IMG/VR virus record: IMGVR_UViG_3300032282_000877
Coordinates: 1 to 36,789 of that record
Direction: 5' to 3' (one strand)
DNA from: a virus
Length of the DNA stretch: 36,789 nucleotides
Made by a program: the position numbers and the translations under genes. This document shows positions 15,915-30,824 of the stretch, piece by piece (positions within the stretch are counted from its first letter, which is position 1; the number at the start of each line of letters is the position of its first letter). Under the pieces are notes generated by a model. The model worked only from the letters and a program-made list of their open reading frames with translations, made no database searches and was not told the DNA's origin.

Positions 15915-17420
15915 TTAGTTCAGCGTCTTTTGGCTGAGGTCGATGACGATGAACTCTGCTGGATACTGAAGTGCCACACCAACTTGGATGTGAACTTCAC
16001 CATTTGCGATTTGTGCGTCTGAGTTGTTCTCAGCATCGCACTTAACGAAGTAGGCCTGTGCGGATGTTGCACCACGAAGACCACCTTGGTTCTTGTACTC
16101 GTTAAGGAATGCGCCAAGAGTGGTGTTGATGCGAGCCCATAGACGCTCATCGTTGTTTTCAAAGATTGCAAACTCTGTGAGGTTCTTTAGGTTCTTCTTG
16201 ATATAAATCAAAGAACGACGCATGTTTACATACTTGTTTGCTGTTCCATCTTGCTTTAATGTGCGAGCACCCATAACAGAAAGTCCAGCGCCAGGAATCT
16301 GACGGATTGGGTTTACTGGTGATGTGCTTGCGTTCATTGAATCAAGTTCAGAAGAAGAGAAACTCTTCTCCATTGCTACAACATTTTGTAGCGCTGTGCC
16401 AATACCAGCAGGAGCCTTGAAGACTCCTCGGTTTGCATCAGTTGTGAGGTAGAGACCTGCAACTGCTCCTGATGGACCAATCTTGCGAAGGGCACCAGTT
16501 CCACGTCCTAGTGGATCTGCGATATAGGTCCATGGGAAGTAGACAGCAACGTTGCTTGAATCTGTAAGGCTTCCAGCAAATGAAATTGCATCTGCTGTTA
16601 TAAAGTCTGCTCCTGTTTCAGCAATAACAAATCCATCATTAGACTCTGACCAAGATGATGCAGCGTCATAAACACTAATGCTTCCTTCTGCAAGAGTTTC
16701 TACAATACCAGGAAGGAAGAACACAAGTGGACGAGCAAGTGGAGCAAACTCTTCAAATACTGAAGTGGCTCCACCCTTGTACTCTGTGTAATCTGTTTCT
16801 GTTGGAGTTGTTCCATTACTTCCACCAGTAAGTGGGTAAGTAGTAGACACAGGAATTCCACCAGCAGAATCGCTGATTGTGATATTTGGAGAGACTAAGT
16901 TAACAACAGTCTCTGCGTAGTCACTAGATGTGTCATCATCAAATACAACATTCTCGTAACGTTCAAGAAGAATGTCATCAGTGATATCTCCTGTAACACC
17001 TGACTCTTTGTACAAAGTAAGTGTGTATGTATCAACAACTGATCCTGCTGTAATTACAACACGAAGTTTGTTGCCATCTGTTCCTGCGTTTTTTGAAGTA
17101 ACAGTTGCAACAACTGCGCTTCCTGAGGTAAGTAAGTCAACAGATCCAGCAACTGAGTCATCAGCAAGAAGGCGCTTGACGTAGAGTTCACGTCCACCGT
17201 TTGCAAAGAATGATCCGACCTGGAATGTTGCTGGGTAGGAAGCGTTGTAGCCTCCAAAATTCTTAGTAAATTCATACCAAGATGAAACAAGTGTCACTGC
17301 CTCTGGGCCTTGTGCAAATGGGGCAACCACTGCACCTGCAGCATTAGCGGTAACACCGCCAGCAATAGTTGCTGGTAGTAGACGTTCAGTAATGTAAACG
17401 CCTGGACGGCTGTAAGCCAT
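15915..17420 (-). CDS. Tail sheath protein
   Basis: 501 residues. It begins MAYSRPGVYITERLLP, followed by AVVAPFAQGPEAVTLVSSWYEF and FFANGGRELYVKRL, the conserved start of contractile sheath subunits. The C-terminal third has RRSLIYIKKNLKNLTEFAIFENND and ends in a strand-rich domain with VHIQVGVALQYPAEFIVIDLSQ, which forms the interlocked C-terminal arm. The middle (about 100-220) is a variable surface domain. Contraction of the sheath drives the tube through the envelope. TTAGGAGAAAAA precedes the ATG. High confidence from motifs and from the adjacent tube gene. Confidence 0.95.
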   Translation of the reverse strand: MAYSRPGVYITERLLPATIAGGVTANAAGAVVAPFAQGPEAVTLVSSWYEFTKNFGGYNASYPATFQVGSFFANGGRELYVKRLLADDSVAGSVDLLTSGSAVVATVTSKNAGTDGNKLRVVITAGSVVDTYTLTLYKESGVTGDITDDILLERYENVVFDDDTSSDYAETVVNLVSPNITISDSAGGIPVSTTYPLTGGSNGTTPTETDYTEYKGGATSVFEEFAPLARPLVFFLPGIVETLAEGSISVYDAASSWSESNDGFVIAETGADFITADAISFAGSLTDSSNVAVYFPWTYIADPLGRGTGALRKIGPSGAVAGLYLTTDANRGVFKAPAGIGTALQNVVAMEKSFSSSELDSMNASTSPVNPIRQIPGAGLSVMGARTLKQDGTANKYVNMRRSLIYIKKNLKNLTEFAIFENNDERLWARINTTLGAFLNEYKNQGGLRGATSAQAYFVKCDAENNSDAQIANGEVHIQVGVALQYPAEFIVIDLSQKTLN

Positions 17421-17450: not shown

Positions 17451-18113
17451 TTATGGTTGCTGAATGGTGTACGAGATTGGGGAGAACTGACCACGACCTA
17501 ATTGTTCGTTGTCAGTTGTACCTGTGGCGGTAACTTGCAACACTTTGTACATCTTGTTGAATGTTTCAGGCGCAATCTCGGATGAGATACGCACTGTGAT
17601 AGCGTTTACGAATAAACGCTTTCCTTGTTCAGTAACATCTCGTTTAGAGACATCAAGAACATCCAGACGACGTACTGTTCCATCATTAGTTTGAAGGACA
17701 GCAAATCGCAATGGAATCTTTGTGTAGAGCAGTTGAGCCAAGATCTCACGATCGTGGCGAGGTTGACGAGAGTAGGCAGTAATTTGATAATCAATGTTTA
17801 CTGGGACTGGATAGTTAATTTCCCAGTCATGTAAGTCAGAGTCATAGTCTGTATCTTCACCAATAGTTGTTGGATCATCAACATAAGATGGCTTTACCTT
17901 GCCACGCATTGCACGGCTAAAATCTTCTGCAATATCAATCATGTCAATAGTAATGTATGGATAAGTTTGATCACGAAGTTCTTGATCAGGTTGACCAAAG
18001 TATACTTTTACAGAACGAGTTGGTCCCGCACCATCTACAGATTTTTGATCTGTAACTACCATGTTCTTTAATAGATTACGAAGTGCTTCGTCTTCGGATA
18101 ATAAGAATGTCAT
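17451..18113 (-). CDS. Putative tail terminator / neck protein
   Basis: 220 residues. The pattern KVYFGQPDQELRDQTYPYITIDMIDI, then NYPVPVNIDYQITAYSRQPRHDREILAQLLY is what tail terminator proteins of contractile tails look like: an alpha/beta fold with a long helix after a strand. It overlaps the upstream neck gene by 4 nt and lies just before the sheath gene, the usual place for the cap that stops tube and sheath growth and joins the neck. No enzyme motif is seen. The call is from pattern and position rather than a diagnostic residue. Confidence 0.6.
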   Translation of the reverse strand: MTFLLSEDEALRNLLKNMVVTDQKSVDGAGPTRSVKVYFGQPDQELRDQTYPYITIDMIDIAEDFSRAMRGKVKPSYVDDPTTIGEDTDYDSDLHDWEINYPVPVNIDYQITAYSRQPRHDREILAQLLYTKIPLRFAVLQTNDGTVRRLDVLDVSKRDVTEQGKRLFVNAITVRISSEIAPETFNKMYKVLQVTATGTTDNEQLGRGQFSPISYTIQQP

Positions 18114-18728: not shown

Positions 18729-18896
18729 TTACTTCTTTTTAATCTTCTTGGCTAGAGCCTTATCCATCTTCTCATCTGCTGAGCGAGATGGCTTCTTCTT
18801 ATCCATAGCCTTATCGGCTTTAGCAAACTTCTTCTTTTGTTCTGCATTCATGCCCTTCATAACCTTGGCATCTTGTTTTTTATCTGAAATTTTCAT
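18729..18896 (-). CDS. Lys-rich microprotein, last of the small-gene ladder
   Basis: 55 residues, of which 20 are Lys; there is only one Phe and no Cys. The sequence is highly charged with internal Lys/Asp/Ala repeats and ends KKIKKK, suggesting a disordered or helical basic peptide able to bind nucleic acid or an acidic partner. It begins at the ATG at 18894-18896, 8 nt after the stop of the preceding small gene. The SD is weak, so expression probably relies on reinitiation. The terminator follows directly. No family recognised. Confidence 0.55.
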   Translation of the reverse strand: MKISDKKQDAKVMKGMNAEQKKKFAKADKAMDKKKPSRSADEKMDKALAKKIKKK

Positions 18897-18904
18897 AGGA
18901 ATTA

Positions 18905-19045
18905 TTACATTCCCTTCTTCTTGTTCATAGTCATCTTGGCTGCCTTACCTTTTTTAAGGGCTTTAAAATCAGCGCCAGTGATCTTGTCTGTTGGCTTTGC
19001 AGCCCCAGCAATTTTCATCTGCTTAGTAGTAAGTGTCTTCTTCAT
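18905..19045 (-). CDS. Basic microprotein in the small-gene ladder
   Basis: 46 residues, starting at the ATG at 19043-19045, which overlaps the stop of the Cys-rich gene by 1 nt (TAATG). The protein is Lys/Thr/Met-rich and ends NKKKGM, with a KITGADFKALKKGK segment in the middle. It has no Cys. AAGGGAG lies about 13 nt upstream inside the preceding gene. This coupling and the clean frame support a real gene. Function unknown. Confidence 0.55.
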   Translation of the reverse strand: MKKTLTTKQMKIAGAAKPTDKITGADFKALKKGKAAKMTMNKKKGM

Positions 19046-19137
19046 TATTTCTTTGCTCCCTTACATGTTGAACAAGAGCACTTGCAGCCCTTAACTGGTT
19101 TTGCCTTAGTACATTTGCATCCACATTTAGCGCACAT
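19045..19137 (-). CDS. Metallothionein-like Cys-rich microprotein
   Basis: 30 residues with 8 Cys and 9 Lys. Cys lie at 2, 5, 7, 9, 18, 20, 22 and 25, giving C-x2-C-x-C-x-C then an 8-residue Lys/Pro linker, then C-x-C-x-C-x2-C: an exact mirror image. There is no aromatic residue. Small size, C-x-C clusters and absence of aromatics are the features of metallothioneins, which bind clusters of Zn, Cu or Cd. Start and stop both share TAATG with neighbours, so it is translationally coupled on both sides. It could instead be a zinc-stabilised structural peptide. It matches no metallothionein subfamily I can name. Confidence 0.6.
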   Translation of the reverse strand: MCAKCGCKCTKAKPVKGCKCSCSTCKGAKK

Positions 19138-19310
19138 TACTTGCCTGCTTTCTTGGCCTTTTTAGCCACTGCTGCATTATCCACAAGATTGGGATAAGGG
19201 CGTCCTGCTGCTTTGGCTCGTGCCTTTGCTGCAGACTTCTGAGATGAGGATAACTTCTTATCTTTGCCTGATGGGTCTTTAGTGTCCCAAAACTTTTTAC
19301 TAGCAGTCAC
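19137..19310 (-). CDS. Lys/Ala-rich microprotein with GRPYPNLVDN motif
   Basis: 57 residues from a GTG at 19308-19310, which overlaps the DUF6321-like gene by 11 nt. The N-terminus (KKFWDTKDPSGKDKK) is polar; the C-terminus is an Ala/Lys helix. In between is AGRPYPNLVDNAAVA, a motif that looks conserved in small actinophage proteins. The stop forms TAATG with the Cys-rich gene. Basic charge suggests DNA or nucleoprotein contact. Function unknown; the GTG start is chosen because no ATG precedes the conserved part. Confidence 0.5.
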   Translation of the reverse strand: MTASKKFWDTKDPSGKDKKLSSSQKSAAKARAKAAGRPYPNLVDNAAVAKKAKKAGK

Positions 19311-19560
19311 AATCCCACGCCCTTAATGACTTATTAATACGGCTATTGGGATCACGAGCAGTCTTGGCAGATGTGTTCTTTGCCTTCATGCCTTTCATTC
19401 TTTTACAAAATGCTTTATGGCGTTTGTTACCGTGATCTTTACTTGGGGCTTTTAAATCTGATCCAGGGTTAGCCTTCTCGTAAGACTTGCGACCCTTTTC
19501 ATTAAGTCCACCCTTTTTATTCTTGCCCTCTGAACGTTGCCACGCTGCTGTCTTAGCCAT
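19300..19560 (-). CDS. DUF6321-like small basic protein
   Basis: 86 residues. The pattern SEGKNKKGGLNEKGRKSYEKANPGSDLKAP, KAFCKRMKGMK and DPNSRINKSLRAWDC matches the DUF6321 family of small phage proteins, function unknown. It is strongly basic with three Cys, one in FCKRM and two in the terminal WDCDC. It overlaps the upstream gene by 8 nt and the downstream GTG-started gene by 11 nt. Being in the ladder before the neck-tail block suggests a late, possibly virion-packaged protein; that is inference. Confidence 0.75.
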   Translation of the reverse strand: MAKTAAWQRSEGKNKKGGLNEKGRKSYEKANPGSDLKAPSKDHGNKRHKAFCKRMKGMKAKNTSAKTARDPNSRINKSLRAWDCDC

Positions 19561-19786
19561 TCTTCTTATGCCAATCTTTAGTCGCTTTTACGCCTTGAGC
19601 AATTGTCTTTGCCCCAGCCTTCTTTGTCAGGTTAATCTTGTCGTAGGCACCGCCACGCTTTGCGTGGTCAACAATCACATCGCCCTGCTTGTTCTTCTTA
19701 ATGGTGTGAACTTCACGTGCTGGCTTACCAGGAACTTTAATGCCAATCTTTACTGGCTTCTCAACTGGCTTCTTCTTGTCAGCCAT
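19553..19786 (-). CDS. Small basic protein in the ladder
   Basis: 77 residues, Lys-rich, with a likely strand-rich core VKIGIKVPGKPAREVHTIKKN and a C-terminal helix. It has no Cys and no membrane segment. The start ATG (19784-19786) shares TAATG with the DUF6496-like gene upstream; the 3' end overlaps the DUF6321-like gene by 8 nt. Family not recognised. Coupling to its neighbours implies coordinated synthesis. Confidence 0.6.
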   Translation of the reverse strand: MADKKKPVEKPVKIGIKVPGKPAREVHTIKKNKQGDVIVDHAKRGGAYDKINLTKKAGAKTIAQGVKATKDWHKKNG

Positions 19787-19959
19787 TACTTCTTCTTAAC
19801 TTTCTTGGCTGCCTTTGCTTCGCTCAGAGCGATAGCGACTGCTTGAGATTTCTTAGTAACTACTGGTCCCTTTTTAGATCCGCTATGAAGTTTACCTTTT
19901 CCATACTCCTTCATTACTTTTTCAACTTTACCCTTAGTCACTGACTTTTTAACAGCCAT
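19786..19959 (-). CDS. DUF6496-like small basic protein
   Basis: 57 residues. KVEKVMKEYGKGKLHSGSKKGPVV followed by SQAVAIALSEA is the pattern of the DUF6496 family, a short phage and bacterial protein family without known function. It begins at the ATG at 19957-19959, sharing TAATG with the acidic gene upstream, and ends in TAATG with the next gene. The family often appears beside other tiny basic genes in phages. A DNA-associated role is possible from charge alone. Confidence 0.7.
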   Translation of the reverse strand: MAVKKSVTKGKVEKVMKEYGKGKLHSGSKKGPVVTKKSQAVAIALSEAKAAKKVKKK

Positions 19960-20075
19960 TACTTTTCCTCTTCTTCTAGTTCGTCCTCATCCCACGCATG
20001 ATCATCGTAGTCTTCTAATTCTACCGCTTCATCTTCGAAGAGCGAAGGGTCTAGTTCTTCTTCAAATTCGTTCAT
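19959..20075 (-). CDS. Very acidic microprotein, first of the small-gene ladder
   Basis: 38 residues, 21 of them Asp or Glu, with one Lys and one His. A good ribosome site, TAGGAG, precedes the ATG at 20073-20075, so this gene can lead translation of the coupled ladder that follows. The stop forms TAATG with the DUF6496-like gene. Extreme acidity could mimic nucleic acid or neutralise the basic partners encoded just downstream. The sequence includes three aromatic residues besides Trp28, so a short fold is possible. Family not recognised. Confidence 0.55.
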   Translation of the reverse strand: MNEFEEELDPSLFEDEAVELEDYDDHAWDEDELEEEEK

Positions 20076-20083
20076 GCTATCTC

Positions 20084-20617
20084 CTAGTTAGCGTAAGTTT
20101 GAAACTGTGGATCATTTACTAATTCTTCTGCATTTACCATGTTACAGTCAAGGGTAACTACTGAGTAGTTTTCCTTGTAAAGACCACGAGGAAGGACACG
20201 AGTAGGAACAAAGACCTCATTGTGAAATACAATACGATCCTTAATATGGGCATTAGGATCAGTCACCATAAATGGAATGAGGCGCTGGACATCAGCCACA
20301 GCCACAACGAGGCGAAGAGTATCTGTGACGTAGTAACCACGTTCATTCATTACGTTAGTACCACGTAGTTGTTGTGCCATGACTACAGGTAATTTGAATG
20401 GATCATTCCAGCGGCGACCTTTGCCATCTTCCTGATTGGATACGTCGTAGATGGGATCTACCCAGTTCTCATAATCAGCGGCTAGTGCGTTGGGATCCCA
20501 CGCCCACCAGTCAACTTCAGTTCCTACAGGATCACGGAGTTCGTCAATGATGCCTTCATCAATTGACTTATGTTCAAACTCGATCTTGAATCGACCCTGT
20601 ACCTGGTTACCACGCAT
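20084..20617 (-). CDS. Putative head-closure / neck protein
   Basis: 177 residues. The N-terminus has GRFKIEFEHKSIDEG; the middle has VDWWAWDPNA, VDPIYDV and RGYYVTDTLRLVVAV; the end has VFHNEVFVPTRVLPRG and VNDPQFQTYAN. This beta-rich pattern resembles head-to-tail stopper proteins of actinophages. The gene lies at the junction between the fibre genes and the neck-tail block. There is no enzyme motif. The neck call depends on pattern memory and position, so a minor structural protein is the alternative. Confidence 0.5.
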   Translation of the reverse strand: MRGNQVQGRFKIEFEHKSIDEGIIDELRDPVGTEVDWWAWDPNALAADYENWVDPIYDVSNQEDGKGRRWNDPFKLPVVMAQQLRGTNVMNERGYYVTDTLRLVVAVADVQRLIPFMVTDPNAHIKDRIVFHNEVFVPTRVLPRGLYKENYSVVTLDCNMVNAEELVNDPQFQTYAN

Positions 20618-20655: not shown

Positions 20656-20925
20656 TTAAGGGGCGACTTCTATCCAAAGACAAGTCTCTTCGTTTAATTC
20701 AAAGTTACCATCTGGCTTTGGTGGAATAAATGCATCACGTTCTGCATCGTATGTAAATCCAATACCAGCAAAATTTTTGCGTATGTTTCCATTGTATGAA
20801 GTCTTAATCCAGGTACCACCGAGGTTATCAATTAACCATTGGTAACCTTCATCAGGTTCATCATTACTTCCAACAGTTACACGAAGAACAATGTTGTTCT
20901 CATTAACTTCAGCCCAATGCGCCAT
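20656..20925 (-). CDS. Small fibre-partner protein, paralogue 1
   Basis: 89 residues. It begins MAHWAEVNENNIVLRVTVG, then WIKTSYNGNIRKNFAGIGFTYD and ends in LNEETCLW. Two paralogues occur at 23924-24298 and 27359-27616, each directly after a glycine-rich fibre gene. Here the ATG shares TAATG with the stop of the fibre gene at 20925-22406. The NEETxLW ending is like tail fibre assembly chaperones, so it may help fold or cap the partner fibre. That function is inference; the family is a widespread small phage virion-associated protein of unknown role. Confidence 0.65.
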   Translation of the reverse strand: MAHWAEVNENNIVLRVTVGSNDEPDEGYQWLIDNLGGTWIKTSYNGNIRKNFAGIGFTYDAERDAFIPPKPDGNFELNEETCLWIEVAP

Positions 20926-22612: not shown

Positions 22613-23305
22613 ATGGCAACAAAGGCAGACTTCTTTACCAAGAACAAGTACGTCGTACATGAGAAAGCAATTAGCCAAGAGATAGCAAGACTAGGCGCTC
22701 AGTATGCAATCTTTGATGCACTTCAAAATTACCAGGACGAAGGCACCCTAGCCAATAATGCACAGGTTCCTAAATCACATAGTAAGTATGCTGATCCATT
22801 TATGGAGGCATTAGAGTTACTTTTATTGCCTACAGTAGAAGAAAGTACTGGGCTATCTTTATACCCAACGTATTCCTATTATAGACTTTATAAACCAGGT
22901 GATGATCTTCTTCCACATACAGACCGTCCAGCCTGTGAAATTTCTTTAACTATTAACCTTGGCTATTTTTATAACACAAACATTAAAGATTATTCTTGGG
23001 ACATCTGGGTAGAAGGTAAAGCATTTAAAACTGAACCTGGAGATATGATTATTTATCGAGGCCTTGAAATGAAACACTGGCGTGAACCGTTTGCCGCTGG
23101 TCGTGGCTCTTGGCAAGTTCAAGCATTTTTGCATTATGTAGATGCTAATGGGCCATATGCTATGTGCAAGTTTGATGGCCGTCCTATGCTTGGTTACCCA
23201 ATCTCTCATAAACAACCAGGATTAGACTCTCTTGCTGAGGGACTTGCAGCGACTAACTTTAATAAACCTGATTTATCAAATGCAGTTATTCACGTATCAC
23301 GATAG
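22613..23305 (+). CDS. 2-oxoglutarate/Fe(II)-dependent oxygenase
   Basis: 230 residues, with TAGGAGG before the start. Residues 88-120 read SYYRLYKPGDDLLPHTDRP and a strand SLTINLG; the HxD metal pair is H102 and D104. The distal ligand is probably H155 in MKHWREPF, followed by a strand WQVQAFLHYVD. This order is that of the double-stranded beta-helix oxygenases. They use O2 and 2-oxoglutarate to hydroxylate protein, sugar or nucleic acid. It is on the plus strand, opposite the flanking fibre genes, and paired with a second, different oxygenase 9 nt downstream. The substrate is not known; virion fibres are the obvious neighbours. Confidence 0.8.
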   Translation: MATKADFFTKNKYVVHEKAISQEIARLGAQYAIFDALQNYQDEGTLANNAQVPKSHSKYADPFMEALELLLLPTVEESTGLSLYPTYSYYRLYKPGDDLLPHTDRPACEISLTINLGYFYNTNIKDYSWDIWVEGKAFKTEPGDMIIYRGLEMKHWREPFAAGRGSWQVQAFLHYVDANGPYAMCKFDGRPMLGYPISHKQPGLDSLAEGLAATNFNKPDLSNAVIHVSR

Positions 23306-23314
23306 GGGATTACA

Positions 23315-23923
23315 ATGGAATATATTTTAGAAGCACCACTAGTACCAGATGATGTGGTAGCGGGTGCAATTCATATTTATAATAATGTATGGACAGATAC
23401 GGATGAAGTTATTGCTGCTATTGAAGAAGAGGTTTTAAAATCAGATAGCGGTCTTTTTTTTGATAAAGCAATGACTGTAGATCAAAATTGGAATGGTCCA
23501 CGCAGAAACCTTATTATGGGACTTACTTCTTCTGCTCGTCGAGGTAATATATTAGCCCAACAAATTCATAACCGTTATGGAATTACTCTTGATAGAGCAT
23601 TGACTGGATACGGTAAAAAGTTTGAAACTAATTATACATCTCATGAAGACTACGGATTACTTAAATACCGTGGTGAAAAAAAAGAACACTATGACGCCCA
23701 CTTTGATGGGGGCACCGACAGTGGTCGTTCAATTTCTGCTGTATTTTATTTAAATAATGATTATGAAGGTGGAGAAATTGAATTTGTTCATCATAACGTA
23801 AAAATTAAACCAGGTGCGGGAACACTAGTTTTGTTTCCAAGTAACTACGCTTACTCTCATATTGCTCACGAAGTAACTAGTGGAATTAAATACGCCATTG
23901 TTACCTGGGTACACGATAGATAG
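23315..23923 (+). CDS. Prolyl-4-hydroxylase-like 2OG/Fe(II) oxygenase
   Basis: 202 residues, with AGGGGA before the ATG. The C-terminal domain carries HYDAHFDGG (metal ligands H129 and D131), then ISAVFYLNNDYEGGEIEF, the P4H-type core, and SHIAHEVTSGIKYAIVTW with probable distal ligand H185 and 2-oxoglutarate-binding K192. All key residues are present, so it should be active. It is in one operon with the preceding oxygenase. Its stop abuts the stop of the minus-strand partner gene with no spacer. Prolyl hydroxylation is the family activity, but the nearby Gly-X-Y repeats have almost no proline, so other targets are likely. Confidence 0.85.
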   Translation: MEYILEAPLVPDDVVAGAIHIYNNVWTDTDEVIAAIEEEVLKSDSGLFFDKAMTVDQNWNGPRRNLIMGLTSSARRGNILAQQIHNRYGITLDRALTGYGKKFETNYTSHEDYGLLKYRGEKKEHYDAHFDGGTDSGRSISAVFYLNNDYEGGEIEFVHHNVKIKPGAGTLVLFPSNYAYSHIAHEVTSGIKYAIVTWVHDR

Positions 23924-24298
23924 TTAGTCAGTTACCTCAAAGTTAAGGGCTTTCCAACTAATAGTTTCTTCATCCCATTCATACATTAATTCATCTTCTG
24001 GATGAGCAACTGGTGGTTGCCACCACACGGTTTCTTCATTTAATATCCAAGATGGATAAGGTTGTATTGGAATAAAAGCATCAATATCTGGACTATAAGT
24101 AAACCCTATTCCTGCATAATTTTTTCTAAACGTTGCATTGTATGAAGTTTGAATCCAATTTCCACCATAAAGATTGTGACAAAATTCCTGTCCAATAGAT
24201 TCAACCTCATTACCATCTGCATCTGTAATATCAGAGTTATTAACTACAATGACTCTTAATACAATATTGTTGTTATCTAATTCAGCAAAGTGTGCCAT
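23924..24298 (-). CDS. Small fibre-partner protein, paralogue 2
   Basis: 124 residues, longer than its two paralogues. It shares MAHFAELDNNNIVLRVIVVN, WIQTSYNATFRKNYAGIGFTY and LNEETVWW with them, and adds a second WDEETISWKAL-like ending, which strengthens the likeness to tail fibre assembly proteins. The ATG shares TAATG with the stop of the fibre gene 24298-26073. It also has an insertion, ITDADGNEVESIGQEFC, in common with the copy at 27359-27616. A chaperone or cap of the preceding fibre is the most likely role, by inference. Confidence 0.65.
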   Translation of the reverse strand: MAHFAELDNNNIVLRVIVVNNSDITDADGNEVESIGQEFCHNLYGGNWIQTSYNATFRKNYAGIGFTYSPDIDAFIPIQPYPSWILNEETVWWQPPVAHPEDELMYEWDEETISWKALNFEVTD

Positions 24299-26073
24299 TA
24301 TGCTGGGTACCTTACAATTACAACACCTGAACCACCAGCAGATTGATTTGGAAATGATCCCGATAGAGGACCACTTGTTCCTGTACCTCCACCGCCACCG
24401 CCTGTGTTTGCTGTTGCTGATACGGGTGATCTACCAACATATGGACCGCCTGTTGGGGTAGGTCGAGACACAAGTATGCCACCTGTGCCACCGCCACCTG
24501 TGCCACCTACACCAGTAGTAGGAATACCTGATGAATTTGGAACTGACATATAAGTACCACCACCACCACCACCTGCATAAGTAGCACCAAAGTAAGGTAA
24601 CCCAACGCCACCATTAAAACCAATAAGTGCTGGAGAAATAGCATCTGCGCTTCTTCCACCAGCACCACCACCACCACCACCATTGTTTCTGTTGGTCCAG
24701 TCAGGTGCTCCTCCAGGATAACCTTGACCTGGTGTACCACTACCAAAGTTAGGACCATCTAAATAATTAGAGCCTGTTCCACCGCCAGAACCTCCAGGGT
24801 TTCCAGAGTTATTAGACCCACCAAAACCACCACCTATAGCAGTTGAATTTCCTTGGAAAGATGAAGGATTACCATTAGTTCCTGGATTAGACCCTGTACC
24901 GCCACCTCCAACAGTAACTGTATACACCCCTGATCCATTACCGCCTGTTGGTGTAAAGGCTGCTGGTTCGTAAACTAAACCACCAGCACCACCACCTCCA
25001 CGCTTTGATGTTTGAAGTGAAAGTGATTGATCAAATGAACCACCACCTCCACCTGCAACAACTAATACAACTCCCGCTGGTTGGCTACCTGATGTAACTG
25101 TAAATGATGAACTGCCAGTAAATGTGTGATAAACGTATCCATCACCTGGTGTTGTTTTAGTTCCGCCTGTTGCAATAAACGGTAGAGTTGGTGTTGCTGA
25201 AGTAGATGCGGAAGATGCGGCAGAAGTTCCATTAGCATTAGTTGCTGTAACTGTAAATGTATATGCAGTTCCGTTAGTTAAACCTGAAACTGTGATAGGA
25301 CTTGATGCACTTGTTCCCGTAAATCCTCCAGGTGATGATGTCGCAGTGTAAGTAGTTACTGCAGAACCACCAGTTGCATTACCTGTAAATGTTACAGAAA
25401 CCGCTCCACCAGTTAAGGCATCGGTAGCAGTTCCAATAGTTGGGGCTTGAGGAACAGATGACGGAGTTACAGCATTAGAAGAAGATGATGCTGTAGATGT
25501 TCCATTTGCATTTGTTGCGGTAACTGTATACGTACGAGAAGTTCCCGCCCCTGTTGTTTCAGAAACTACAATTGGACTAGCAGAACCCGTAGCCGTATTA
25601 CCTGATGAAGATGTAACTGTATACGTTGAAACTGTTGCTCCGCCAGATGCTCCCGCTGTAAATGGCACAGATACGTTAGCAGATCCAGTATAAGACTGAC
25701 CAGTAGCAACAGATGCAGTACCAATAGTTGGGTTTTGAGGAAGTGTTGTTGCTGTAAAAGATGCCGAGGTAGTAGCAGATCCCGTAGCACTCACGTTAGA
25801 CGGAGTGACAGTTACTGTGTACGAGGTGGCACTTGATAGGCCCGTTAATGTTACTGGGCTAGAACTAGCAATAGTTGTAGTCGTTGTAGGCGTTGTTGCA
25901 ATGGAATAAGAAGATGGAAGACCACCAGTAGGGCTAGAAAACGTTATGGTTGCTGCGGCGTTATTGTAGGCACGGGCAGTTCCTACGTTGACGGCAGATA
26001 CTGTAGGTGCATCAGGAACGTCAGGGATCTTATTGGCAAGGTTACTGACGCCACGACTCTTCTTATCTGGCAC
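24298..26073 (-). CDS. Fibronectin-III and glycine-rich tail fibre
   Basis: 591 residues. The start is GTG at 26071-26073 with AAAGGAG 8 nt upstream. Three fibronectin-III-like units fill residues about 20-300 (VTLTGLSSATSYTVTVTPS, TSRTYTVTATNANG, NGTAYTFTVTATNANG). The rest is a glycine-rich domain opening VVLVVAGGGGGS and ending GGSGVVIVRYPA. The first 50 residues resemble those of the fibre at 20925-22406 (DVGTARAYNN), so the two are paralogues by duplication and module gain. Probably a receptor-binding or decorative fibre. Confidence 0.8.
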   Translation of the reverse strand: MPDKKSRGVSNLANKIPDVPDAPTVSAVNVGTARAYNNAAATITFSSPTGGLPSSYSIATTPTTTTTIASSSPVTLTGLSSATSYTVTVTPSNVSATGSATTSASFTATTLPQNPTIGTASVATGQSYTGSANVSVPFTAGASGGATVSTYTVTSSSGNTATGSASPIVVSETTGAGTSRTYTVTATNANGTSTASSSSNAVTPSSVPQAPTIGTATDALTGGAVSVTFTGNATGGSAVTTYTATSSPGGFTGTSASSPITVSGLTNGTAYTFTVTATNANGTSAASSASTSATPTLPFIATGGTKTTPGDGYVYHTFTGSSSFTVTSGSQPAGVVLVVAGGGGGSFDQSLSLQTSKRGGGGAGGLVYEPAAFTPTGGNGSGVYTVTVGGGGTGSNPGTNGNPSSFQGNSTAIGGGFGGSNNSGNPGGSGGGTGSNYLDGPNFGSGTPGQGYPGGAPDWTNRNNGGGGGGAGGRSADAISPALIGFNGGVGLPYFGATYAGGGGGGTYMSVPNSSGIPTTGVGGTGGGGTGGILVSRPTPTGGPYVGRSPVSATANTGGGGGGTGTSGPLSGSFPNQSAGGSGVVIVRYPA

Positions 26074-26108
26074 TAGTTAATCTCCTTTAAATATTGAGGC
26101 GCAAAAAA

Positions 26109-26375
26109 TTATTCAGCAGGTGTTTCTTCAGTAAGTAATCCTATAGAAATAAGATACTCATTGTCTGCTGGAATAAAGGCAGTTCCATCCCACACACTAT
26201 GAAGTGGTGGAATTACGCCTGCATTGCATCCACATACTACGTACGTATCTCCTGGAACAAATCGGTTGATACCTTCAAGGTTATCTACGTCATGGTCAGC
26301 AAATGTTGTTACTTGTATAACACGATTATCTGATGTGCGTACGAATGCGTGTTCGTGTTCTGTTAAATGATTCAT
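26109..26375 (-). CDS. Small hypothetical virion-associated protein
   Basis: 88 residues, with AGGATAA upstream of the ATG. It contains FVRTSDNRVIQVTTF and FVPGDTYVVCGCNAGVIPPLHSVWDGTAFIPADNEY, a beta-rich small domain with two Cys. The WDGTAFI phrase is like the C-terminal ends of fibre-partner proteins. It lies between two glycine-rich fibre genes. It may be a third class of fibre partner for the fibre at 26385-27359. Family not recognised. Confidence 0.55.
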   Translation of the reverse strand: MNHLTEHEHAFVRTSDNRVIQVTTFADHDVDNLEGINRFVPGDTYVVCGCNAGVIPPLHSVWDGTAFIPADNEYLISIGLLTEETPAE

Positions 26376-26384
26376 TATTTATCC

Positions 26385-27359
26385 TTATCCTACATACCTA
26401 AGAACGACTAGACCTGAACCACCAACGCCGCCATTCTTAGTAGTTGCAGCAGTTGGCGAATAAGTTCTGCCCCCACCGCCACCGCTTCCAGTATTTGCTG
26501 TTGCCGCTACACCATTGGTGTAACCAACAGTATATCCAGCACCATAAGTAGTTACTGCAATGTCCCCGCTACTAAAAGAACCTCCTGCTGCTAAATATCT
26601 ATCAAAAGTTCTTGTTCCTAATCCACCAACAGTTTCATTAACTGTTCCACCTTTATATCCAGTTAATCCAGCAGTTGTTGCTGTTCCTCCAGAACTATTA
26701 TTTGTTCCAAAACCCGCACCACTTGAACTAGCAGAACCACCAGAACCTCCGCCACCACCAGATTCGTTTTGGTTTCCAGCGCCTCCATTTCCTCCACCTG
26801 ATGCTCCAGTTAATCCAGCAGTAGTTGATGGACAACCACCACCTCCACCGCCTGCAGCAGATGTATACGTTGTAGTTGATGTGTTTCCAACAATTGATGA
26901 TGTGCTTCCATTAGAACCTCGTGTATCACCAGTTCCACCACTACCACCAGCACCTACTGTAATATTTAAAGTTGTATCACCAGAAATAGTAATTAATTTT
27001 TCTACTACTTGACCAGCACCACCAGAACCTCCGCCAGTAGAAGTTGCTGGTGCACCGCCGCCACCACCACCACCGCCAACTACTAGCGCCCATATTTTTG
27101 TAACACCTGTTGGAATTGTGTACGTAGCATTAGATGATGTGAATACAACTTCTTGAAGTTGTACAGATGCAACGCTGCCCCATGATGTTGCAGAACCATT
27201 AGTAGTTAGGTACTTACCAGAGTTACCAGTCTGAGATGGAAGTGTTGCTTTGGCGTCTAACTGAGTCTGAATAGAAGAAGTAACACCATCTACATAGCCC
27301 AACTCCGTTGGACTTACTGTGGTCAGGGCGTTATCTGCCAGGTTTCTTGCTTTTGTCAT
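26385..27359 (-). CDS. Glycine-rich tail fibre
   Basis: 324 residues. The first 70 hold the connector text MTKARNLADNALTTVSPTE, a common phage fibre N-terminus, and LPSQTGNSGKYLTTNGS, which also occurs in the small structural protein at 6479-6931. From about residue 70 the glycine-rich domain begins: IPTGVTKIWALVVGGGGGGGG, and it ends GGVGGSGLVVLRYVG. No fibronectin unit is present. The ATG shares TAATG with the stop of the partner gene upstream. Likely a virion fibre attached by its N-terminal connector. Confidence 0.8.
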   Translation of the reverse strand: MTKARNLADNALTTVSPTELGYVDGVTSSIQTQLDAKATLPSQTGNSGKYLTTNGSATSWGSVASVQLQEVVFTSSNATYTIPTGVTKIWALVVGGGGGGGGAPATSTGGGSGGAGQVVEKLITISGDTTLNITVGAGGSGGTGDTRGSNGSTSSIVGNTSTTTYTSAAGGGGGGCPSTTAGLTGASGGGNGGAGNQNESGGGGGSGGSASSSGAGFGTNNSSGGTATTAGLTGYKGGTVNETVGGLGTRTFDRYLAAGGSFSSGDIAVTTYGAGYTVGYTNGVAATANTGSGGGGGRTYSPTAATTKNGGVGGSGLVVLRYVG

Positions 27360-27616
27360 TATTCAGTTACCTCTTCTGTTGATACTGGATAAATAAATTC
27401 ATCTAGTTGGGCGTCATAAATCATTCCTGGGCCCGCAAATCTTCCACGGAAAGTTGCATTGTATGAAGTCTGTTTCCACTCTCCACCAAATGTGTCAGCG
27501 CAGAATTGTGCGCCAATAGATTCTTGTTCAATGCCGTTCTCATCTTTAAGAACTTCATTGTTAATAACAATTACTTGACGGACTATTCCGTTTTCTAATT
27601 TTGCAAAGTGTGCCAT
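27359..27616 (-). CDS. Small fibre-partner protein, paralogue 3
   Basis: 85 residues. MAHFAKLENGIVRQVIVIN, ESIGAQFCADTFGGEWKQTSYNATF and FAGPGMIYDAQLDEFIYP align with the other two copies, but the C-terminal LNEET part is missing, so this copy is shorter. The gene begins 2 nt after the stop of the fibre gene 27619-28455 and ends in TAATG with the next fibre gene. Its place between two fibres supports the pairing of a fibre with the small gene that follows. Confidence 0.65.
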   Translation of the reverse strand: MAHFAKLENGIVRQVIVINNEVLKDENGIEQESIGAQFCADTFGGEWKQTSYNATFRGRFAGPGMIYDAQLDEFIYPVSTEEVTE

Positions 27617-27618
27617 AA

Positions 27619-28455
27619 CTATCCAATCACTACCACTACGTATCCAGAACCACCCGCACGTCCTGTAATGATGTTATTACCAGGTGCTCCACCACCACCA
27701 CCTCTATTGGCAGTTCCAGCAACACCATTGTTGTTTGCAGCGCCACCATTGCCGCCACCTCCAGAACCTCCAACACCACCAGGAGTTGAGGTACTTCCAG
27801 CACCTCCACCACCTGAATAAAATATTGCAGCGCCTCCAACAATTGTATTTGATAAACCTACTCCGCCATCTGGACTGGAGCCAGCGCCTCCAGCGCCACC
27901 ACCTCCGCCACCATTAGTTCCATTTCCAGTTGCTCCATCTGAACCTTGACCAGAAACACTAGTGCCACCTGCAACTGTGGCAGAAATAGAACCTCCACCT
28001 CCAGAACCACCGTGTTTTCCTCCAACTGTACCTGAACTAGTAACGGGTAAAGAACCACCTCCGCCACCAAAAGCGTAAATATTAGAAAGTGCTGAAGAAG
28101 TACCCTGTTGTGCTAACTGTACACTCCAAGAAACGGCACCACCTGCGGTGTCTGGAGCACCACCAGCACCAACAGTTACTGTAAGAGTTCCAGAAGGAAG
28201 AATTTGAGTAGCGTTGTAAACATACCCACCAGCACCACCGCCACCGCTAGATGTGCCTCCGCTACTTCCACCACCACCAACTACTAAAATTTCTGCAGTA
28301 CCAGCAGTACCTACAGTAATAGAACCAGAGCCAGTAAACTTATAAATAGTCTTACCAGCACGAGTTGAAGAGTCAATAGTAGGTGAGCCAGTAGAACCAG
28401 TTACTGTTGCTTTACCTATTCCACCTGCAGATACTGGAGAAAATAATGGTGACAT
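27619..28455 (-). CDS. Glycine-rich tail fibre
   Basis: 278 residues. A short N-terminus (MSPLFSPVSAGGIGKATVTG) leads into the glycine-rich domain: AEILVVGGGGSSGG, GGGGAGGYVYNA, and an end GGSGYVVVVIG. No fibronectin unit. The absence of a normal attachment domain means it must join another fibre protein, perhaps the product of the preceding gene (28470-29300). High glycine and alternating small residues suit a polyglycine sandwich fold. Confidence 0.75.
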   Translation of the reverse strand: MSPLFSPVSAGGIGKATVTGSTGSPTIDSSTRAGKTIYKFTGSGSITVGTAGTAEILVVGGGGSSGGTSSGGGGAGGYVYNATQILPSGTLTVTVGAGGAPDTAGGAVSWSVQLAQQGTSSALSNIYAFGGGGGSLPVTSSGTVGGKHGGSGGGGSISATVAGGTSVSGQGSDGATGNGTNGGGGGGAGGAGSSPDGGVGLSNTIVGGAAIFYSGGGGAGSTSTPGGVGGSGGGGNGGAANNNGVAGTANRGGGGGAPGNNIITGRAGGSGYVVVVIG

Positions 28456-29730: not shown

Positions 29731-30726
29731 ATGAATTTGGTGCATAAATCGGTTTCTAGAGGCGGAAAATTAGCCGCTCTCGTTATACCTCCAACCCTTA
29801 CATCTGGTACTGGGCAGTGTAACCCGTCCGTATTTATTGATGACGATGGCGACATTCTGGTCAACCTTCGTCACATTAATTATACCCTGTATCACGCAGA
29901 GAAAAATCAAAAGTTCCCAAGTCCTTGGGGCCCTCTTTCTTATCTGCATCCTGAGAAAGATCAACGTCTCGTTACTATTAATTATCTCTGCCGCCTTGAT
30001 GATGATTACAAAATCATTAATTACACAGAAGTTGATTATTCTGCCCTCAATGTCCCACCTATCTGGGAGTTTGTAGGAGAAGAAGATTGCCGAGTAGTGC
30101 GTTGGGATGGCGACCTGTACCTCATTGGAGTACGCAGAGATACCACCACTAATGGCGTTGGACGTATGGAGTACTCAAAGATTGAATTAGATAAAGACAA
30201 GTGGACTGCTACCGAAGTTCAACGAGTCCGTATTCCAGCGCCATTAAAAGATGAGTCTTACTGCGAAAAGAATTGGATGCCAGTTCTTGACATGCCGTAT
30301 CACTTTGTTAAGTGGACTATGCCTACTGAACTAGTTAAGTCTAATCCTAATAAGCCAGAGACTGAACAAGTCTTTATTAAAGAGACTAAGGCTGCTCCTA
30401 ATGACCAGCGTGGTGGATCTCAGATTCTTCCTTGGAAGGATTACTACATCACTGTTACCCATGAAGTTAAATTGTGGAAGAATTACCTTAATCAAAAAGA
30501 TGCAATCTATCGTCACCGTTTAATTGTCTGGGATAGAGACTTTAACTTCCTAGGACATAGCCCTGAAAACTTTTCATTCCTAGATGGGCAGATTGAGTTC
30601 TGTCCAGGTGGCGCTATCTATAAGGGAGATCTACTTCTTACTTTTGGTTTCCAAGATAACGCAGCATTCTTATTACGTGTACCTGGAGATCTTGTAGATG
30701 AAATGATTGCGGAGGCTATAGCGTGA
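29731..30726 (+). CDS. Beta-propeller protein resembling glycoside phosphorylase/hydrolase (GH130-like)
   Basis: 331 residues. Repeated blade patterns are visible: CNPSVFIDDDGDILVNLRHINY, EEDCRVVRWDGDLYLIGVRRD, EKNWMPV, QRGGSQILPWKDYYITVTHEV, and FCPGGAIYKGDLLLTFGFQDNAAFLLRVP. The order EDxR, then KNW, then HE resembles five-bladed propellers of the GH130/GH43-like clan, which act on glycans. It is first in the plus-strand island with an ATP-grasp enzyme and a glycosyltransferase, so glycan building or remodelling is likely. Catalytic residues cannot be fixed here, and a binding-only propeller is possible. Confidence 0.65.
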   Translation: MNLVHKSVSRGGKLAALVIPPTLTSGTGQCNPSVFIDDDGDILVNLRHINYTLYHAEKNQKFPSPWGPLSYLHPEKDQRLVTINYLCRLDDDYKIINYTEVDYSALNVPPIWEFVGEEDCRVVRWDGDLYLIGVRRDTTTNGVGRMEYSKIELDKDKWTATEVQRVRIPAPLKDESYCEKNWMPVLDMPYHFVKWTMPTELVKSNPNKPETEQVFIKETKAAPNDQRGGSQILPWKDYYITVTHEVKLWKNYLNQKDAIYRHRLIVWDRDFNFLGHSPENFSFLDGQIEFCPGGAIYKGDLLLTFGFQDNAAFLLRVPGDLVDEMIAEAIA

Positions 30727-30824
30727 ACGAGTGTTATTTCTGTCAGGGAGAAGGTTTACTGCAATCAGGAGAAGAATGCACTTGTGCTGTAGGCAAGTGT
30801 GAATGTATGGGGTGTCATGAATAA
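30723..30824 (+). CDS. Cys-rich 33-residue metal-binding microprotein
   Basis: The GTG start (30723-30725) overlaps the previous stop by 4 nt and has GGAGG 7 nt upstream. The peptide has 7 Cys: C4-x2-C7, then C19-x-C21, C26-x-C28-x2-C31 followed by His32. The first part, CYFCQGEG, fits the CxxCxGxG motif of DnaJ-type zinc-finger repeats. It probably binds one or two zinc ions. Its end overlaps the ATG of the next gene by 8 nt, so three genes are tightly coupled. Function unknown. Confidence 0.6.
   Translation: MNECYFCQGEGLLQSGEECTCAVGKCECMGCHE

Follow-up and report, generated by a model that had tools for sequence, protein, structure and literature searches.

The microgene and its product

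The window, that is, the whole 36,789-nucleotide stretch of viral DNA analyzed here (IMG/VR record IMGVR_UViG_3300032282_000877), carries on its minus strand, from bp 19137 to 19045, a 30-codon open reading frame plus stop codon whose product is MCAKCGCKCTKAKPVKGCKCSCSTCKGAKK; the plus strand of 19045–19137 is interrupted by a stop codon. Eight of the 30 residues are Cys (positions 2, 5, 7, 9 and 18, 20, 22, 25) in the order C-x2-C-x-C-x-C, x8, C-x-C-x-C-x2-C, the two halves of which mirror each other. There are nine Lys and neither acidic nor aromatic residues, and with a charge of +9 over 30 residues the peptide is strongly basic. The eight mirror-ordered Cys, nine Lys and lack of aromatic residues that a sequence-only reading had described are all present in this minus-strand frame.

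The N-terminal half, MCAKCGCKC (bp 19111–19137), has the C-x2-C-x-C-x-C spacing and includes M-C-x-x-C-G-C, the string found at the Ni(II) site of Escherichia coli HypB (discussed below). It is followed by the linker TKAKPVKG (bp 19087–19110; family consensus K-x-G-K-P-x-K-G), which contains a Pro/Gly turn, and by the C-terminal half, CKCSCSTC (bp 19063–19086; C-x-C-x-C-x2-C), which recurs in 18–22 amino acid, 5-Cys peptides of related phages. An AlphaFold model of the peptide (pLDDT 85.7, pTM 0.44) contains no metal, and a Foldseek search with it returned no structural neighbors in the PDB, so the model was set aside for questions of metal geometry.

Both ends of the gene lie in TAATG junctions. 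At the upstream one (bp 19135–19139) the stop codon of the 57 amino acid gene at 19137–19310 and the microgene ATG have one base in common, and at the downstream one (bp 19043–19047) the microgene stop codon shares a base in the same way with the ATG of the 46 amino acid gene at 18905–19045. The translational coupling proposed earlier from these 1-nt overlaps gains support from the family as a whole, in which 67 of 104 loci overlap the stop of the upstream gene by 1 nt.

A lysine-rich island among late genes

The microgene lies in an island of small minus-strand genes that encode Lys-rich proteins. Immediately downstream is the 46 amino acid ORF (18905–19045), which has no Cys and whose homolog in relatives (the ADFKAL domain) is fused behind an 8-Cys (loci L157 and L188), 6-Cys or 3-Cys module; the last two modules are fused to the same body types as the first. 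Beyond it lies a 55 amino acid ORF (18729–18896; QDAKVMKGM), which in relatives is fused behind the 8-Cys module to give proteins of 80–90 amino acids. Upstream are a 57 amino acid ORF (19137–19310; phrog_34011) that is a partner in the cassette across several phage groups, an 86 amino acid DUF6321 ORF (19300–19560), and two further cassette partners, a 77 amino acid member of the VIVDH family (19553–19786) and a 57 amino acid DUF6496 ORF (19786–19959). At the head of this basic island is a very acidic 38 amino acid ORF (19959–20075), whose product could act with the basic peptides and keep them in solution; similar acidic ORFs occupy the same place in relatives L241, L250, L274 and L278. HNH endonuclease-like proteins are inserted into the same small-gene island in L271, L274, L296 and L297.

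Larger minus-strand genes flank the island. Upstream is a 177 amino acid protein (20084–20617) related to gp83 of Streptomyces phage LuckySocke, whose gene lies between the major capsid and tail sheath genes; downstream are a 220 amino acid protein (17451–18113) and the tail sheath (15915–17420). The late-region setting proposed for the microgene is borne out, and it lies near head and tail genes. Two of the cassette partners hint at a virion role, but do not prove it: the DUF6321 protein is related to terminal parts of long phage proteins, among them a protein annotated as T4-like cyanophage structural, and the partner phrog_7595 weakly matches a minor head protein/DNA pilot family. Likewise, proximity to head genes falls short of proving that the peptide is packaged.

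Elsewhere in the window, a second Cys-rich microprotein, MNECYFCQGEGLLQSGEECTCAVGKCECMGCHE (33 amino acids, 7 Cys, zinc-ribbon-like), is encoded on the plus strand at 30723–30824; its gene start overlaps the stop of a 331 amino acid ORF, and it has no relative among the fetched loci. Three adjoining tail-fiber-like genes (24298–28455, minus strand), all phrog_2295, have ORFs of 85–89 amino acids between them, and similar small ORFs are present at 20656–20925; this arrangement looks like a repeated fiber-plus-partner duplication. Amid the minus-strand fiber region, two plus-strand genes (22613–23923) are assigned by PHROG to ferrochelatase and 2OG-Fe(II) oxygenase. Of these, the ferrochelatase label (22613–23305) is a PHROG name that lacks Pfam support, and it was excluded as evidence on metal biology.

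A conserved family of viral microproteins

Searching metagenomic viral DNA by Cys spacing, a check that had been suggested with the original claim, yielded homologs with conserved Cys, so the claim survives the homolog part of the refutation set for it. The DNA pattern for ATG-C-x2-C-x-C-x-C-x7-G-C-x-C-x-C-x2-C is present in at least 119 IMG/VR stretches, but in none of 84,980 GTDB bacterial and archaeal species genomes, where a looser Cys pattern likewise gave no match (both being scans run without a positive control). A first, still looser DNA pattern that required neither ATG nor Gly had matched mainly low-complexity poly-Cys frames and was dropped. From the pattern matches listed, 95 distinct proteins were read out, with the consensus MCAKCGCGCKAGKPAKGCKCTCATCKxARKKK, in which Met1, Gly17 and the eight Cys are imposed by the search. 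Beyond the pattern, and again among the matches listed (n = 94), Lys19 is conserved in 88, Ala3 in 85, Gly6 in 84, Lys13 in 81, Lys16 in 79 and Thr24 in 78. Over the 16 codons that the search leaves free, pN/pS is 0.17 (550 pairs of 2–20% divergence, uncorrected and non-independent). The family's Cys codons are nearly equally TGC (405) and TGT (379), which indicates that the DNA changes while the Cys residue stays. These observations show that the microgene is a real coding gene, as had been claimed, that it is conserved and under purifying selection, and that the Cys/Lys peptide represents a new, widespread and previously unnamed family of phage microproteins.

Because a Cys pattern defines this family, related loci were also gathered without it, using the 220 amino acid neighbor (17451–18113) as bait, which avoids circularity. 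Of the 80 loci obtained, 58 reach far enough upstream to be scored. The exact 8-Cys family is at the expected place in 15 of these, and by a looser filter 54 of the 58 have the 8-Cys form or a replacement Cys/Lys microprotein in the same late island. The remaining forms are peptides with 3, 5, 6 or 7 Cys, several of which frequently lie side by side. The 5-Cys form is 18–22 amino acids long (for example, MALSCKMKNCKCSCKVCKGK), the 6-Cys form begins MCKSCGCGCSKPNCKGACKK, the 7-Cys form reads MCAACGCGKKKGEPGFG...CTCGTCKACKAKKK, a single hybrid 8-Cys form is MTMCVGCGCSKAKCKGKACKCKCKKCK, and several 3-Cys peptides begin, for example, MCATCGCMKPKDKHG or MCATCGCGKKKGQPGFGKG; phmmer with one 3-Cys form gave chance zinc-finger matches only. 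Four of the 58 loci have no Cys/Lys microprotein, so some phages can do without it, and since another six have 3-Cys forms alone, the 8-Cys cluster is not required. The mirrored 8-Cys layout emphasized in the sequence-only reading thus recurs exactly, but it is one of several layouts found in this slot, where peptides with fewer Cys also occur.

Given its very short length, the microgene might be taken for a nonfunctional chance ORF within Lys-rich coding sequence. Its conservation and pN/pS refute this, as do the conserved non-Cys residues in so many viral stretches and the strand bias of the slot filter, which found 63 matches in sense (39 loci) versus none in antisense and 0.1 in shuffled DNA; the idea retains practically no credibility.

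Fusions, phage groups and host

The family occurs in several groups of phages. Of 125 family loci listed, 79 have contractile-tail markers, 12 form a group in which the module is fused to larger proteins, 14 have a PF13252 major capsid gene, for seven the assignment comes from a Dps-like gene, and the other 13 are too short or fall in no group. In the contractile group, wherever the genes are seen, the 220 amino acid gene lies about 1.0 kb and the sheath about 1.7 kb downstream of the module, and the 177 amino acid gene lies about 1.6 kb upstream. In the PF13252 group the module mostly follows the capsid gene and has the same Lys-rich partners. In the fusion group the module is the N-terminus of proteins of 138–352 amino acids, many with Gly-rich, mildly hydrophobic segments. 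At most loci a PF03864/phrog_1005 major capsid gene comes 0.9–3.2 kb ahead of the fused gene, and phrog_1732, a conserved gene of unknown function, follows it; at L161 the fused gene precedes the capsid gene. Capsid-E group proteins (L029, L113, L155, L226 and other fusion loci) have repeated [VI][SE]K[SAG] motifs, such as SVEKSF, which often directly follow the Cys module and are possible protease or sorting signals. The module is therefore found near head or head-tail genes in phages with unrelated capsids, and the Cys/Lys peptide is part of a mobile cassette of Lys-rich peptides.

In a structural reading, the fusions, whose genes in that one group mostly lie between the major capsid gene and the conserved gene that comes next, would clip or cement head or neck proteins and be stabilized by metal, the Cys module serving as a small zinc fold. 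The number and spacing of the Cys vary freely among close relatives, however, and the gene can be lost, which makes such a role very improbable.

A WhiB gene is present in 19 of 21 large related records (there is none in the 36.8-kb window), and among isolates the sheath has its best matches in Streptomyces phages; from these two observations the host is probably actinobacterial.

Constant charge and a HypB-like N-terminus

What these peptides keep most strictly is not the exact mirror but their basic charge, together with the N-terminal MCxxCGC in the majority of forms. The net charge per residue is 0.27–0.30 in every slot class, from 3 to 8 Cys, whereas by the same count Neurospora crassa copper metallothionein is at zero and SmtA at about zero (the latter for a sequence that differs from PDB 1jjd at one residue, Cys where 1jjd has Ser). 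The metallothionein-like composition claimed for the peptide thus stands for its richness in Cys and its CxC and CxxC motifs, but not for its charge, since those metallothioneins are near neutral. The M-C-x-x-C-G-C N-terminus is present in all 50 distinct slot proteins that start Met-Cys, the slot filter having demanded the Cys but not Gly6, and is absent from the 5-Cys class.

The E. coli HypB protein, as read from the K-12 genome, begins MCTTCGCG, and phage peptides begin MCATCGCG, MCAKCGCG and others, so that in both the string stands exactly at the N-terminus. At its N-terminal site, HypB coordinates Ni(II) by way of Cys2, Cys5, Cys7 and the N-terminal amine, with a Kd in the sub-picomolar range (PMC7055735). 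HypB is a GTPase that carries the motif as a short tail, whereas in the phage peptides it is joined to a Lys-rich body, often with more Cys, and there is no GTPase. The resemblance is a string of seven or eight residues and would be a functional analogy rather than homology.

This string, together with the metallothionein-like Cys content and the fact that the module is not bound to one capsid type, would suit a metal buffer or metallochaperone that is made late in infection, stays in the cytosol instead of being packaged, and delivers Zn, Ni or Cu for use by phage or host enzymes or takes these metals away. Against it are the head or tail genes nearby wherever the context is readable and the strong basic charge, unlike that of SmtA and the Neurospora protein, and we consider it unlikely, slightly more so than the DNA-condensing role considered next. 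No Ni-SOD was found in 20 related records, in a search whose control was silent.

The constant charge, on the other hand, draws attention to DNA. The product might be mainly a basic, protamine-like DNA-binding peptide, packaged with the genome and condensing it, with its Cys cross-linking the peptides via zinc or disulfides, as in Cys-rich sperm protamines. In favor of this, the charge of about +0.3 per residue is steadier than the Cys number, Lys-rich peptides are fused to the module or encoded around it, and eight loci (L208, L144, L079, L115, L143, L195, L224 and L216) have a Dps-like ferritin gene (PF00210, phrog_3636), of a class with known DNA binding, within about 1 kb of the microprotein gene. 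The CxxCxCxC and CxCxCxxC arrays, however, have the spacing of metal clusters, beyond what cross-linking needs, and MCxxCGC fixed exactly at the N-terminus points to a defined metal site; condensation as the main role is therefore unlikely.

Likely function

The best explanation, to which we assign a probability of roughly 0.55, is that the microgene encodes a metal-thiolate microprotein belonging to a late cassette of small basic peptides, which actinobacterial phages produce alongside their head and tail proteins. The Cys spacing and the terminus resembling that of HypB suggest metal binding; the constant charge, the Lys-rich partners, the head-tail location and the Dps neighbors suggest that the peptide is close to DNA or to parts of the virion. 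Methionine aminopeptidase is expected to remove Met before Cys, and this would leave a free amine on the N-terminal Cys. That amine and the thiols of Cys2, 5, 7 and 9 may then hold a thiophilic metal in the first half of the peptide, and the four thiols of the second half may hold one as well, either as one site per half or as a joint cluster closed by the Pro/Gly linker. In the cell the metal would most likely be Zn(II), with Ni(II) or Cu(I) possible. The Lys appear to be far more numerous than a metal cluster would need; more tentatively, they could retain the peptide at DNA or at acidic proteins of the virion, where it might buffer metal and oxidants beside the phage genome while the particle assembles or within it.

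A more ambitious proposal, possible but distinctly tentative, is that unrelated actinobacterial phages share a mobile cassette of Cys/Lys-rich microproteins that are packaged along with the genome, and that a metallothionein-like site combined with protamine-like DNA binding would protect or condense the viral DNA, the Cys module being often fused or replaced while the charge and, mostly, the nickel-site-like N-terminus are kept.

In one large phage group such peptides are widespread (54 of 58 sampled relatives), and they extend to phages with unrelated capsids. What was sampled of the IMG/VR contigs sets a lower bound on how prevalent they are. If the metal-thiolate role is confirmed, phages would bring their own thiol or metal chemistry within the head-tail module. 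The peptides are also a very small natural scaffold in which the Cys number varies from 3 to 8 while the basic character stays constant, so that tests should be able to separate metal binding from DNA binding.

Comparison with metallothioneins and other Cys-rich proteins

The family is absent both from the protein family libraries and from the collection of annotated phages that were searched. Twenty-seven family members matched no Pfam family up to an E value of 10, NCBIfam gave only a chance match to PhnP (E 0.88), PHROG gave no family up to E 1, and hmmsearch of the PDB with the family profile, solved metallothionein structures included, found nothing up to E 10. This agrees with the earlier statement that the mirror spacing matches no known bacterial metallothionein family. 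No match was found by tblastn of its 30, 83 and 203 amino acid forms against INPHARED, where the low-complexity filter may mask such Cys/Lys-rich queries, and full-text literature searches turned up no phage metallothioneins.

Besides HypB, three kinds of known protein are nonetheless close enough in character to be compared. The SmtA family (PDB 1jjd and relatives) is likewise small, Cys-rich and of bacterial setting, and a metal-thiolate cluster would be expected in both, but SmtA is 55 amino acids long, near neutral, and has His and aromatic residues, unlike the phage peptide. The Neurospora crassa copper metallothionein (PDB 1t2y) resembles it in its very short length (25 amino acids), seven Cys, Cys-x-Cys runs and lack of aromatic residues, but is neutral and eukaryotic, with a different spacing and no match to the family profile. 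Sperm protamines and other Cys-rich, DNA-packing peptides are basic and Cys-rich like the phage peptide, which would also be expected near packaged DNA, but protamines are Arg-rich and are not known to have CxxCxCxC clusters. By sequence, then, the phage peptide falls outside the known metallothionein families, and it probably works like a metallothionein.
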